A stretch of 64,000 nt of DNA from Skermanella pratensis (GTDB lineage Bacteria; Pseudomonadota; Alphaproteobacteria; Azospirillales; Azospirillaceae), in the NCBI RefSeq assembly GCF_008843145.1, contig NZ_CP030265.1:3331001-3395000 (forward strand), read 5' to 3'. How positions within the stretch are numbered: position 1 is the first letter of the stretch; every line of letters starts with the position of its first letter. Below are positions 56,867-63,199 of this stretch, piece after piece. A program made the translations under genes and the position numbers. The notes beneath the pieces are model-generated. The model saw only the letters and a list, made by a program, of their open reading frames with translations, had not been told where the DNA came from and did no database searches.

Positions 56867-57838
56867 TTACCGGCGTTCGACCGCGGCCGTGGCCGTGTAG
56901 GTCTTGCCGCCGACGGTGAACCGCGCCAGCACGCCGGCCGGGCACTGCTGGGCCGCCTTCCGGATGTCGGCCCGGTACCGGTACTGGCCCTTGCCCGGGT
57001 CGGACACGTCGGGAGTGACGGCGGCGACGCCGTACTGGACCGTGCCCGCCGCGTTGAGGATGGCGACCGACCCGCTCGGCGGAACCGTGCTGCCGCGGAC
57101 GTCCCACTCGATCTCGTCGGCGGCGCGCTGGCGGCACTCCGCCCGCAGGATGCTCACGCGCGGCGTCTGGCTCGCGTCGTCACCCACCGATGCCGTGGCG
57201 CTGTAGGCGTAGACGGTACCCTTGCCATCCGGCGTCGGCACGTAATAGCCCGCCACCACGATGTCCGTGCCGGGCGCGACGGAGCCGGGAGCGATCTCGA
57301 AGCCGGCCGAGTTCTTCAGCGGGGTTCCCGGCAGCCGAGGGTCGTAGGCGACGGGCGGCATTCCGGATGCGGGCGTCACGTCGGGATAAGGCCGGGCATT
57401 GGACGAGGCCGGCAGCAGGACGACCGGCATCCCTTCCACCTCGAAGCCGGTTCCGTCGTTCAGCGTCACGGTGCCGATCAGGTGGTGCTCGGCGGGCTCG
57501 ACATAGACCTGCCGGGCATAGATGCCGGAAAGGTCGCGCGTGCCGGTGACGATGGCGTGGCCGCCGATGAAGCCCCGCTCCGTCCGGCCGGGTAGCGCGG
57601 GCCCGGACGCCAGGTCGCCATGGGCGAGCGGCGCCGTGGGCGAGGTCAGTTTGGTGGCGGGAGTGACGACGACGGTAAGGCCCATGACCTTGATGACGCT
57701 GTTGCCGCTCTCGACGCCCGCGGCCTCGAGCGGGCCTTCGATCTCGATCACGCCCTGGCCGGAGCCTTGGGCCATGGCGGGTACCGTGCAGAAGAGCACG
57801 GCGGCCGCGAGGGCAGGGACGCAGTGGATGATGCGCAT
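56867..57838 (-). CDS. Exported protein of unknown function in the copper-oxidase operon
   Basis: A 323-residue protein with a signal peptide (residues 1-24, ending PAMAQ). The mature part is beta-rich: GVIEIEGPLEAAGV, IKVMGLTVVVTPATKL and HLIGTVTLNDGTGFEVEGMP recall OB-like repeats as in DUF5666 proteins, and a C-terminal domain (about 225-323) with cysteines in RAECRQRA and AQQCPAGV could form a disulfide. I do not recognise a defined function. It is the last gene of the minus-strand set headed by the multicopper oxidases, 53 bp after the preceding gene. Confidence 0.7.
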   Translation of the reverse strand: MRIIHCVPALAAAVLFCTVPAMAQGSGQGVIEIEGPLEAAGVESGNSVIKVMGLTVVVTPATKLTSPTAPLAHGDLASGPALPGRTERGFIGGHAIVTGTRDLSGIYARQVYVEPAEHHLIGTVTLNDGTGFEVEGMPVVLLPASSNARPYPDVTPASGMPPVAYDPRLPGTPLKNSAGFEIAPGSVAPGTDIVVAGYYVPTPDGKGTVYAYSATASVGDDASQTPRVSILRAECRQRAADEIEWDVRGSTVPPSGSVAILNAAGTVQYGVAAVTPDVSDPGKGQYRYRADIRKAAQQCPAGVLARFTVGGKTYTATAAVERR

Positions 57839-58491: not shown

Positions 58492-59538
58492 TCAGGTCAC
58501 TTCGATCCAGGTTCTGGCGAGTCCCCCGGCCGCGTGGGGCCGGTTGGTGATCCAGTCCTTGTAGGTGGCCGTCACCTCGTACCGGCCGGGCTGGACGTTG
58601 TGGATCATGAACGTCGTCCGCTGTGCCGGGGTGAGGTTCGTCACCGCTTTCGCCGGCACGGGAATCGGCTTCGAAAAGGTGCCGAGCTGGGGGTTCGTCC
58701 GCAGGGGCCTTCCGTCCATCTCGACGATCGTGCTGTTCAGGCCGATGCGGATGTCCAGGTTGCTGTAGGTCGCATTGATCGACCTCAACAGGATGTTCTG
58801 CCCTTTCCTGGCCCGGACGATGACGCGGGGATCCCGTTCCGTCCTGGGGTGGGGGACGCCGCTGATCAGGAAGTATTTCGGCTCGAAGCGGTTCAGCCCG
58901 GCGTCCTCGCCGCACAGGCCGGCGGAATGATTCAGTTCGTGCCAACGCGGGTCGACATCGTCGAAGGACCAGATCGCCTCCACCTGGTAGCGGAGGTCGG
59001 TCGCCTGGTCCTCGTCGGCGGGATGGCGTTCGAACAGCAGTCCCGGTCCGCTGGGAGGATCGATGACCAGCGGACCGTACATGCCCATCTCGAAATGGAG
59101 CACCGTGTTCTTGTGGCAGTGATAGAAGTAGGTGCCCGGCGTCTTGGCCTGCCACTGGTATGTGTACTGGTTGCTGACCTCGAAGGAGGTGTGTCCCACG
59201 CCGTCGTTGACGGTACTCGGCTCGATGCCGTGCCAGTGTATGGTATGGGTGTTCTTGGCCGCATCCAGGGTGGCATGGACGATCTGGCCCTGGCGCACCC
59301 GGATCAGCGGCGAGGGCCAGGTTCGGTCGCCGCCGGAGGTATTGGGATCGACGAAGCCCCAGAAGCGGACGTCGCGGCCGTCCGGCATGGTGACGTCGAA
59401 GGACCCGTGGACCTTGCGGGTCAGGCGGATGTTGGGGCTTACCTTGTCCGGGGTCTCGATCACGTCCGAATTGGGATCGCAGCCGAACGCGTCGTACTCC
59501 GCGGGATCGGTCGGCGGACGGGGAATGGTCGTGCTCAT
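58492..59538 (-). CDS. Multicopper oxidase-like protein, copper sites in domain 1 only, no signal peptide
   Basis: A 348-residue two-cupredoxin-domain protein. Domain 1 has a full ligand set: His98, His101, His103 (THTIHWHGIEP), His140-Cys141-His142, His148 and Met151 or Met153 (FYHCHKNTVLHFEMGMYG), so a type 1 copper site and half of a trinuclear site. In domain 2 the matching loop reads LLRSINATYSNLDIRI, without histidines, and no HCH motif follows. There is no signal peptide. The upstream gene, 30 bp away, encodes the complementary half with a Tat signal. Confidence 0.85.
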   Translation of the reverse strand: MSTTIPRPPTDPAEYDAFGCDPNSDVIETPDKVSPNIRLTRKVHGSFDVTMPDGRDVRFWGFVDPNTSGGDRTWPSPLIRVRQGQIVHATLDAAKNTHTIHWHGIEPSTVNDGVGHTSFEVSNQYTYQWQAKTPGTYFYHCHKNTVLHFEMGMYGPLVIDPPSGPGLLFERHPADEDQATDLRYQVEAIWSFDDVDPRWHELNHSAGLCGEDAGLNRFEPKYFLISGVPHPRTERDPRVIVRARKGQNILLRSINATYSNLDIRIGLNSTIVEMDGRPLRTNPQLGTFSKPIPVPAKAVTNLTPAQRTTFMIHNVQPGRYEVTATYKDWITNRPHAAGGLARTWIEVT

Positions 59539-59568
59539 GGGAAACTTCCTTTCATCGAGCGGCGGAAA

Positions 59569-60678
59569 CTAAAGCGGACCCTCGATGATCCAGTCCGTCA
59601 CGAGCCCCAGCGGATAGGAACCTCCGGCGGAGGTCTGGGAAATCTCGTTGTGGCAGTGCATGGGGTAGATCAGCGGGAACTTCTCCTGGCGCGGCGGCCA
59701 CGCGGCGTCGGGGATCTCGGGCGGCTTGGCGAAGGGCAGCAGCAGGTCCCGGCGCATCAGGGGAGGCATCGACCAAGTGTCCTCCTCGATGATGTTGTCG
59801 AGCACCCGGACCGCATGGGAGCTCTCGACGATCTCCGCGGTGGTGAAGACGTGGTTTCCGTGGATATGGGGAGAATGGGTCGCCAGCCCGGCATTGAGCG
59901 CCCGCAGCAGCAGGGGTTGGCCGACCCGCCCGCGCGGGACCGTGGCCTCGTCATGGGCCGCATCGACTCCGCTCAGGCCGTTGATGGTGAAATAACGGGG
60001 CAGGAACGATGCGGTCAGGTCGAGCGCTCCCGCGAGATCGCCCGCCTCGGCCAGCTTGTTGATTCGCGGGTCGATCTGGTTGAACACCCAGATCCGGTCC
60101 CGGCCCGGCTGCCATGGGCTTCCGGGGAAGCGGGCGTGATTGCCCAGCGCCGAGAACAGCGCGCGGACTCCGGGCGTCGCCTGGCCCGCGGCATAGGGGG
60201 TGGCCGGACTGCCGGGCGGTTGGGCGGCGGGTTCGACGACGATCGCACCGTGAAGCCCGAGGAGCCTGTTCAGCGGTGCGCGGTCCGGATCGAGATAGAA
60301 GTAGGTGCCCGGCAGACCGACCGTGAACGTCACGCTGCCGATACCGTTGGGAGCGATCGGCCCGAGGCTGACACCCGGCATGCCGGGTATTTGCAGGGAA
60401 TGCGGAGTGCTCGCGAGGTTCTGCACGGTCAGGGTGACCGTCTGTCCCTGCTTCAGGCGGATGACCGGCCCCGGAACGCTCGGCTTGCCGGTGCCGAGGG
60501 AAAATGCCCACATGAAGACGGCCGACCCGTCGACCATTTCCACGTCGGCCTCTTGTATCCGAAGAGAAACTTCGATCGGCGGCGGGGCCGCCTGGGCCAG
60601 CAGCGGACCCGACAGGAATGACAGCCCGGCGACGCCTGCCAGGCCGCCTCCGTACTGGAGAAACTGCCGTCGTCGCAT
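59569..60678 (-). CDS. Multicopper oxidase-like protein, copper sites in domain 2 only, Tat signal
   Basis: A 369-residue protein with a twin-arginine signal (MRRRQFLQYGGGLAG) and two cupredoxin domains. Domain 2 keeps His268, His271, His273 (THSPHIHGNH) and His341-Cys342-His343 (YPMHCHNEISQTSAGGSYP). In domain 1 the equivalent loops read STPHSLQIPGMPG and GTYFYLDPDRAPLNRL, so the HxH and HCH ligands are lost. The His normally following HCH is also absent, so the type 1 site here is doubtful. It is the first gene of the set; no clear promoter is seen in the 433-bp gap upstream. Confidence 0.85.
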   Translation of the reverse strand: MRRRQFLQYGGGLAGVAGLSFLSGPLLAQAAPPPIEVSLRIQEADVEMVDGSAVFMWAFSLGTGKPSVPGPVIRLKQGQTVTLTVQNLASTPHSLQIPGMPGVSLGPIAPNGIGSVTFTVGLPGTYFYLDPDRAPLNRLLGLHGAIVVEPAAQPPGSPATPYAAGQATPGVRALFSALGNHARFPGSPWQPGRDRIWVFNQIDPRINKLAEAGDLAGALDLTASFLPRYFTINGLSGVDAAHDEATVPRGRVGQPLLLRALNAGLATHSPHIHGNHVFTTAEIVESSHAVRVLDNIIEEDTWSMPPLMRRDLLLPFAKPPEIPDAAWPPRQEKFPLIYPMHCHNEISQTSAGGSYPLGLVTDWIIEGPL

Positions 60679-61111: not shown

Positions 61112-63199
61112 ATGGGAAGAGTCGCAGCCACAGTCGCGTCAACGCTCTGCCTGCTCATCGGCATGGCACCGTCGGCGTTCGCCAGGGACGACGACGGAGA
61201 CGACGATCGGAAGCACGGGCGGGACGGGATCGAGAGGCAGGTGATCGGCAAGATCCTGCAGGCCGATTACGACGGATACAGCGACGACCTGCTGACGGCG
61301 GGCCTGGGAGCGGCGGGACTGGCGGGACAGGCACCCCAGCCGGTGAACGCCGCCTCGCCGACCGCCGAGGAATTGCGCCGGATCGCGATCTACAACAATT
61401 ACCGGGCGCTGGTGGACGTGTCGACCGGAGGCGGCTATGGCACGCTCTACGGCCCGGTCGTGGGAGTGGACGACAAGGCGAAGGATCGGGACGGAAAGAT
61501 ACCCGGGACGGAGTACTTGGCGCTGCTGGACGGCGACGGTCGCGGAAACTCGCGGGTGACGGTGGCCGTGCAGGTCCCCGACAGTTTCCGTCCCGACAAG
61601 CCCTGCATGGTAACGGCGACCTCGTCCGGCTCGCGCGGCGTCTACGGGGCGATCGGCACCGCGGGCGAGTGGGGGCTGAAGAAAGGCTGCGCGGTCGTCT
61701 ACAACGACAAGGGGACCGGCACCGGCTTCTTCGACCTGGAGAACGGCAAGGGCTACACGATCCGGGGAGAGCATGTCGAGGCGTCCCGGTCGGGCAAGCC
61801 GCTGAACTTCGAGCCACGGATTCCGCGGCGCGAGCTGGACCGGTACCTGGAGGACAACCCGGACCGCTGGGCGATCAAGCACGCCCACTCGCGGGAGAAC
61901 CCCGAGGCGGATTGGGGGACCGATACCCTGCGCTCCGTCCAGCTCGGCTTCCATCTGCTGAACCGGCATTTCGCCGGCGAGAAGGACTTCCGGAGGATAA
62001 CGCCGGAGAACACCATCGTCATCGCGTCGAGCGTGTCCAACGGCGGGGCCGCGGCACTGCGGGCGGCCGAGGAGGACAGGCGGGGCTGGATCGACGGCAT
62101 CGCCGTTTCGGAGCCGAACGTCAATCCGAAGCGCGACCGCTCCTTCCGGATCCAGCAGGGCAGCGGCCCGGCTTTGGTGGAACACGGACGGCCGCTTTAC
62201 GACTACATGTCGTTCTACACCCTCTATGAGGGCTGTGCGGCGGCGTTGCCGGGCAATACCCGGGCCCTGCAGGTCTGCACCGACCTGAAGGCGCGCGGGC
62301 TGCTGAACGAGGGAACGCCGGCCGAGGCCCAGAAATTGATCCAGGATTATGGCATCGTGCCGGAGCAGAATGCGCTCGCGGCGTTCTACTGGTCGGCCAA
62401 TGTCTACCAGTCCGTGACAGTCGCCTATGCGAACGCCTATTCCAGGGCCAGCGTGACCGACAATCTGTGCGGCTTCTCCTACGCCCATGCCGATGCGACG
62501 GACCGGCCGGCTCCCCTGCCCCGCGCCAATGCCGAGCTTGCCTTCGCCCAATCGAACGGCATTCCCCCGAATATCGGCATCCAATTGATTCGGAACGGCG
62601 TTTCGACCACGACAGTCGGCGGGGCGCCGGCTCCCATGGCGGACGTGGACGGCGCCGCCTGCCTGCGCGCCCTGTGGACCGCCGGTGACCGCGACCACTC
62701 GCGCAGGGGCGGTGGCGACAAGGGCCGCGGCGGCAGGGATCCGGCGCGGCGTTTGGCGGAAGGCGTGGAGGAGGTGCTTGCCACGGCGAACCTGCGCGGC
62801 AAGCCTGCCGTGATCATCCATGGCCGGGCCGACGCGCTGATCGCGGTCAACCACAGCTCCCGCTCATACTATGGTTCGGCCCTGAGGCAACGCCAGGAGA
62901 TCCGGTACTATGAGGTGACCAACGCCCATCACCTGGACGCCTTCAACGTGATCCCGGCCTTCGCCGCCGCATACGTGCCCCTGCATGTCTATTTCAACGA
63001 GGGGCTGGATTACCTGTACGACCATCTGACCAAGGGCGACGCGCTGCCGCCTTCCCAGGTGGTCCACACCGTTCCGCGGGGGGTGGAAGCTTCCGTGGTG
63101 CCTGCGATCACCCGGGACAACGTGCCGCCCATCGCGAAGAAACCCCGGAAGGAGGACCGCATTACGTTCCGGGGATCGGTGCTCCGGATACCCGACTGA
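61112..63199 (+). CDS. 3-hydroxybutyrate oligomer hydrolase
   Basis: A 695-residue exported esterase that splits 3-hydroxybutyrate oligomers released from polyhydroxybutyrate. Residues 1-24 are a signal peptide, followed by an acidic-basic stretch (RDDDGDDDRKHGRDG). The family nucleophile motif is IASSVSNGGAAALRAAEE; TSSGSRGVYGAIGTAGEWGL and VYNDKGTGTGFFDL are conserved, and VIIHGRADALIAVNHSSR with NAHHLDAF give the Asp and His of the triad. A charged insertion (about 525-545, SRRGGGDKGRGGRDPARR) is unusual. Confidence 0.9.
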   Translation: MGRVAATVASTLCLLIGMAPSAFARDDDGDDDRKHGRDGIERQVIGKILQADYDGYSDDLLTAGLGAAGLAGQAPQPVNAASPTAEELRRIAIYNNYRALVDVSTGGGYGTLYGPVVGVDDKAKDRDGKIPGTEYLALLDGDGRGNSRVTVAVQVPDSFRPDKPCMVTATSSGSRGVYGAIGTAGEWGLKKGCAVVYNDKGTGTGFFDLENGKGYTIRGEHVEASRSGKPLNFEPRIPRRELDRYLEDNPDRWAIKHAHSRENPEADWGTDTLRSVQLGFHLLNRHFAGEKDFRRITPENTIVIASSVSNGGAAALRAAEEDRRGWIDGIAVSEPNVNPKRDRSFRIQQGSGPALVEHGRPLYDYMSFYTLYEGCAAALPGNTRALQVCTDLKARGLLNEGTPAEAQKLIQDYGIVPEQNALAAFYWSANVYQSVTVAYANAYSRASVTDNLCGFSYAHADATDRPAPLPRANAELAFAQSNGIPPNIGIQLIRNGVSTTTVGGAPAPMADVDGAACLRALWTAGDRDHSRRGGGDKGRGGRDPARRLAEGVEEVLATANLRGKPAVIIHGRADALIAVNHSSRSYYGSALRQRQEIRYYEVTNAHHLDAFNVIPAFAAAYVPLHVYFNEGLDYLYDHLTKGDALPPSQVVHTVPRGVEASVVPAITRDNVPPIAKKPRKEDRITFRGSVLRIPD

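Follow-up and report, generated by a model that had tools for sequence, protein, structure and literature searches.

A stretch of 64,000 nucleotides from Skermanella pratensis (contig NZ_CP030265.1, positions 3,331,001 to 3,395,000; hereafter the window) carries two adjacent minus-strand genes whose products, designated here A and B, each consist of two cupredoxin domains and resemble two-domain multicopper oxidases. We propose with considerable confidence that A and B are complementary subunits, likely of one obligate heteromeric multicopper oxidase, in which domain 2 of A is predicted to meet domain 1 of B and the two would together form a single trinuclear copper site, with four histidines supplied by each chain. 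The basis for a heteromer comprises the complementary ligand sets of the two proteins, the conservation of these sets, a fixed gene order, natural fusions and an export motif that is found on one side only. The coordinates of the genes and of the relevant motifs are collected in Table 1.

Table 1. Positions, within the window, of the two genes and of the motifs discussed in the text
Feature	Positions	Strand	Remarks
Subunit A, two-domain multicopper-oxidase-like, 369 aa	59569..60678	-	no ligand set in domain 1; four trinuclear-site His in domain 2
Predicted twin-arginine signal of A, MRRRQFLQYGGG..., residues 1-28	60595..60678	-	RRx[FLYIVM] motif; Pfam TAT_signal E 0.03, below cut-off
A domain 1, lost ligand loop HSLQIPG, residues 93-99	60382..60402	-	sequence, alignment
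A domain 1, lost ligand loop FYLDPDRAP, residues 127-135	60274..60300	-	sequence, alignment
A domain 2, HSPHIHG, residues 268-274	59857..59877	-	trinuclear H271, H273; vestigial type 1 H268
A domain 2, MHCHNE, residues 340-345	59644..59661	-	trinuclear H341, H343; type 1 Cys342
Subunit B, two-domain multicopper-oxidase-like, 348 aa	58492..59538	-	domain 1 with full type 1 site and four trinuclear His
B domain 1, HTIHWHG, residues 98-104	59227..59247	-	type 1 H98; trinuclear H101, H103
B domain 1, HCHKNTVLHFEMGM, residues 140-153	59080..59121	-	trinuclear H140, H142; type 1 C141, H148, M153
B domain 2	within 58492..59538	-	without ligand set
B domain 2, ligand-free loop YSNLDIRI, residues 258-265	58744..58767	-	sequence, alignment

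Complementary ligand sets in two paralogous proteins

The stop codon of A and the ATG of B are separated by 30 nucleotides, and the two proteins are paralogous (hhalign 99.8%, 23% identity over 323 columns). A Pfam scan places a Cu-oxidase_3 match over domain 1 of A. Among solved structures compared by sequence, the two-domain oxidases 2zwn and 3g5w match B best, over its domain 1, and the best matches of A cover only domain 1, with copper nitrite reductases first. Curated family models do not separate the A-B family, since no NCBIfam model reached its cut-off for the five proteins scanned. The closest relative of B among the matches listed is a protein of Skermanella aerolata (91%), and a second adjacent A-B pair is encoded in the same genome (G000:C1:2584451-2586790; 53% and 51% identical to the pair of the window).

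Conservation of the ligands was assessed in an A alignment of 119 sequences, taken from the best 120 of 644 matches after removal of the fusion P0087, and in a B alignment of 121 sequences, comprising B of the window (P0002) and the best 120 of 2554 matches. The four trinuclear histidines of A (H271, H273, H341 and H343) are each present in 119/119 sequences; in B, residues H98, H101, H103, H140, C141, H142 and H148 are each present in 121/121 and M153 in 120/121. A type 1 site in the N-terminal domain is a feature of B (H98, C141, H148, M153) and not of A, and in neither chain are trinuclear ligands found in both domains, these being confined to domain 2 of A and domain 1 of B. The same picture emerges from 80 A loci obtained by a profile search of GTDB genomes with A: all four trinuclear histidines of A are present in 79 loci (H271 in 80/80, H273 in 79/80), the exception, L078, having A split over two frames, and the series H,H,H,H,C,H,H is retained in all 77 complete copies of B, the gene being lost to contig ends in L020 and L087 and truncated in L029.

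The emptied sites are less uniform. At the domain-1 positions of A equivalent to the missing ligands (Q96, P98, L129 and P131), His occurs in 0, 1, 7 and 3 of the 119 sequences and in 1, 0, 18 and 12 of the 80 loci, and never at 129 and 131 simultaneously in either set; judged by alignment, a minority of A proteins retain one stray histidine there. Position 93 of A, aligned with the type 1 H98 of B, is still His in 110/119. The equivalents of L261 and I263 in domain 2 of B are His in 1/121 and 0/121, respectively; elsewhere in this domain, the position of Asp328 (P0002; about 58557 in the window) is occupied by His in 44/121 B sequences and 41/77 locus copies. The type 1 site that A itself once had in domain 2 has decayed: Q348 stands in place of the second His in 118/119 sequences and Q in 74/80 loci, H268 persists in 67 and C342 in 60 of the 80 loci, and C342 is replaced in 19 of 79 locus copies. 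Because these type 1 residues drift while the four trinuclear histidines stay, A looks as if it were under selection to supply exactly half a trinuclear site.

An earlier note on this DNA, made from the letters alone, had described both open reading frames, the loss of ligands from HSLQIPG and FYLDPDRAP in A alongside the retention of HSPHIHG and MHCHNE, the retention of HTIHWHG and HCHKNTVLHFEMGM in B alongside the empty loop YSNLDIRI, and a mirror-image loss that leaves four plus four histidines and one full type 1 site (His98, Cys141, His148, Met). All of these observations hold, and conservation in the alignments and in the 80 loci places the pattern beyond chance.

Gene linkage, natural fusions and export

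The conserved adjacency that the earlier note had suggested searching for is found in 78 of the 80 loci, where B lies directly downstream of A on the same strand; in the other two (L020, L087) the contig stops after A. By their record titles, the loci belong to at least eight phylum- or class-level groups. From the counts in three genome samples, the pair appears rare and patchy. In the order sample, A was found in 5/82 genomes and B in the same five; in the phylum sample, A and B were each found in 1/398, and in the class sample of 289 genomes a strong full-length match to either profile was obtained only in the genome of the window, the remaining matches being partial and at far lower scores (at most 4 to 7 candidates were scored per genome in the class and phylum samples, so that misses are possible). 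Genome G289 holds a fragment of A. Seven A-B loci (L013-L019) were observed in a single species, Skermanella aerolata KACC 11604, and in one of them, L016, only the C-terminal half of A is within the open frame adjoining B. The distance matrices of A and B are similar (r 0.84 over 75 pairs), which reflects joint inheritance and is not proof of contact; L020, L087, L029, L078 and L016 were left out of this comparison and of the covariation analysis. Stop-codon read-through from A into B is not claimed, since the two genes share a frame in 25/78 loci, the third expected by chance.

When A and B were used as a query in one chain, 63 of the 117 listed proteins examined contained an A region followed by a B region, and none had the reverse order. 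By their given names, the sources of these fusions include Calditrichaeota, Krumholzibacteria, Deltaproteobacteria, Arthrobacter, Acidimicrobiales and others. The fusions are 494-1109 aa long (some are cut) and carry one A and one B region each, which does not amount to a six-domain single chain. The joining of partners into one chain is classically taken to indicate physical association. The fold alignment used 45 of the 63 fusions and left out 18; the eight trinuclear histidines are kept in 45/45, and in the same set Pro replaces the Cys of A in nine and Arg replaces the first His of A in ten. A simple motif pattern missed 12 of the 63, of which 11 are in the alignment with all histidines present.

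The RRx[FLYIVM] motif was found within the first 30 residues of 110/119 A sequences and 1/121 B sequences, and B of the window has no recognisable export signal; the top 13-residue hydropathy close to the N-terminus is higher for A (median 1.48) than for B (median 0.49). A predicted twin-arginine signal on one subunit and none on the other is the layout of the hitchhiker complexes of the twin-arginine translocation (Tat) system, such as HybOC and PaoABC, as described in PMC4273604. The text consulted names no multicopper oxidase pair. We infer that A and B are probably exported together.

In the proposed mechanism, A and B would fold and pair in the cytoplasm, and the twin-arginine signal of A would take both chains through the Tat system, B travelling as a passenger. 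Copper would be loaded outside, possibly with the help of the SCO1/SenC-like protein that is encoded beside B in about a third of loci. Electrons from the substrate would enter at the type 1 copper in B domain 1 and run via Cys141 and the histidines on either side of it to the interfacial trinuclear site, which would reduce oxygen to water; domain 1 of A and domain 2 of B would serve as scaffold.

Predicted arrangement and alternative readings

In the model of A-B, four consecutive domains superpose on ceruloplasmin 1-697 as an open four-domain arc, and the third Foldseek match of the model is Mnx 9bxa. The A-B order places the trinuclear ligands in the second and third domains, in a geometry that is predicted only, as is the contact of A domain 2 with B domain 1. 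The heteromer envisaged in the earlier note, with a trinuclear site shared between these two domains, is thereby supported by the model as well as by adjacency, co-occurrence, fusions and the one-sided export motif. Its alternating 3+3 ring is not supported: two chains cannot take turns around a ring of three, and the modelled arc is open; closing it would call for an additional module.

A lesser possibility is that the active unit depends on an additional, third module, either a different subunit or a further copy of A or B, to close a ceruloplasmin-like ring, for example as A-B-A, A-B-B or a larger assembly. The model matches about four of the six ceruloplasmin domains, the gap corresponding to one two-domain module, and two-domain oxidases are described as trimers in PMC13151041. 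However, the 80 loci hold no further A- or B-like open reading frame of at least 70 bits other than A genes broken across two frames, and the fusions stop at one region of each kind.

Several observations weigh against the shared-site heteromer. The model was built with A and B joined by an 11-residue tether (Q in place of the stop codon, followed by the 10 codons of the intergenic stretch), from an alignment that itself holds natural fusions, and for an Arthrobacter fusion ceruloplasmin was not among the best 50 VIA rows. Covariation between domain 2 of A and domain 1 of B reached 0.72-0.78 of expectation (119 pairs; effective number of sequences, Neff, 69), which is lower than that between the two second domains (0.96-1.02) and higher than that between the two first domains (0.19-0.56). 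The Tat motif is present in only 30 of the 63 fusions, some of which are cut at the N-terminus, and three Arthrobacter-type fusions begin without it; among separate proteins, a hydropathy mark of 1.6 is reached by only 33/119 A sequences (and 1/121 B). Finally, an intact orphan A (G290:C1:177205-178383) has no B within the 7 kb examined, in a genome that also has a full pair. The earlier note had regarded homologues occurring widely alone as contrary evidence; this orphan is a single case, and the tallies of A and B coincide.

The failure of covariation to support the pairing of domain 2 of A with domain 1 of B, together with the trimers mentioned above, could also be taken to mean that A and B form separate homotrimers, B being an electron-transfer cupredoxin whose sole copper site is of type 1 and A a copper-binding or structural protein. 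We consider this improbable: it leaves unexplained the invariance of exactly four trinuclear histidines per side during the drift of the type 1 residues of A, as well as the fusions and the missing export signal of B. Marginally less credible still is a copper store, sensor or resistance protein devoid of oxidase activity, to which the naming of some fusions as copper resistance proteins by a source and a weak similarity to copper_res_A, far below cut-off, would point, but the strict conservation of a full type 1 site and eight trinuclear histidines suggests turnover, and the recurrent neighbours examined are SCO1/SenC-like, peroxidase and secretion genes (no search for efflux genes was made).

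Two assignments to known enzymes were rejected. Copper nitrite reductases have a catalytic Asp, a single type 2 copper and no HxH and HCH pair in domain 1. They are the nearest PDB sequence match of A, but over domain 1 only and with the wrong ligand pattern; B has HTIHWHG and HCH in 121/121, and NCBIfam TIGR02376 is far below cut-off. Similarity to the copper resistance proteins CopA and CueO extends mainly over one domain and is likewise far below cut-offs.

Gene neighbourhood and comparison with known systems

An SCO1/SenC-like gene, plausibly encoding a copper loader, follows B in 24 of the 72 loci with at least 600 nucleotides after B (Pfam confirmed three members). A gene resembling animal haem peroxidases is found 0.9-2.3 kb after B in 10/80 loci (Pfam was run on the L036 member). 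In Erythrobacter sp. SD-21 (L036), this gene is mopA: the gene-specific portion of the MopA forward primer given in PMC6247904 matches exactly at L036:10352-10373, the start of the mopA open reading frame, and the order of genes (L036:6001-13149) is A, B, a SCO1/SenC-like gene, a response-regulator-like gene (identified by eye) and mopA. In view of this mopA neighbourhood in relatives, metal ions such as Mn(II) are our leading guess for the substrate. A broader and more tentative suggestion is that of a class of four-domain, two-chain (sometimes fused) multicopper oxidases, intermediate between the two-domain and six-domain classes, with oppositely lost halves, neither chain of which would work alone, possibly exported pre-built and acting as metal oxidases beside MopA in Mn(II)-oxidising bacteria.

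Other neighbours were also recorded. Type II secretion-like genes flank A-B in L024, L028, L033, L035, L037, L038, L041, L043 and others, and a secretin-like cluster was found in 13 loci (Pfam was run on the L024 member). Near the second A-B pair of the same genome lies a 721-aa di-haem CCP_MauG protein (L101:2378-4543); a cluster with the same Pfam match was found in 8/80 loci. Beside the pair of the window no SCO1/SenC-like, haem-peroxidase or CCP_MauG gene was seen. A DUF5666-like gene (56867-57838) is downstream of it, and a related protein (L101:788-1891; 36% identical over 319 columns) is encoded near the second pair. A divergent 3-hydroxybutyrate (3HB)-oligomer hydrolase (61112-63199; PF10605, E 9.8e-226) adjoins the pair in the window. 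As PADLOC gave no match, a defence-system reading was dropped.

The structures 3g5w (Nitrosomonas europaea) and 2zwn (metagenome) are those of what we take to be type C two-domain multicopper oxidases. In known enzymes of this type each chain carries both ligand sets, and they are trimers of like chains, whereas A and B each carry one set and lack the other, so that neither qualifies as type C. The Pleurotus POXA3 laccases act as heterodimers, but according to PMC3129051 they combine a laccase with another small protein, whereas A and B are two paralogous oxidase chains that would each contribute half of the copper site; the heterodimeric laccases met in the literature covered are fungal, with a small second subunit (same source). 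MopA shares with A-B a run of consecutive genes in Erythrobacter SD-21 but is a haem peroxidase, and a part of A or B in Mn oxidation is a suggestion from gene neighbourhood; as a working oxidase, the pair would be placed beside mopA in a model Mn(II)-oxidising bacterium. In the literature covered, by titles and the beginnings of abstracts and with subscription papers mostly outside it, no heteromeric, split or four-domain multicopper oxidase matching A-B is described.

If the proposed heteromer is real, it would be a clear case of duplicate genes made mutually dependent by opposite losses, and the A-B family would offer a direct route to testing how shared active sites evolve. Ceruloplasmin, which groups with factors V and VIII, resembles A-B in the superposition of the four modelled domains, but has six domains, three type 1 sites and a trinuclear site between domains 1 and 6 (PMC3600357). 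The six-domain oxidases, comprising MnxG and the algal ferroxidases, have a single trinuclear site between domains 2 and 3, which is also where that of A-B is predicted to lie, and include Mnx 9bxa, third in the Foldseek search; as the same text describes them, they are single six-domain chains, with the bacterial mononuclear site in domain 2, whereas A-B has four domains, two chains and the type 1 site in the third domain (domain 1 of B). Multicopper blue proteins are sorted there into two-, three- and six-domain groups, to which complementary half-active chains with natural fusions would, if the reading is true, add a fourth arrangement.
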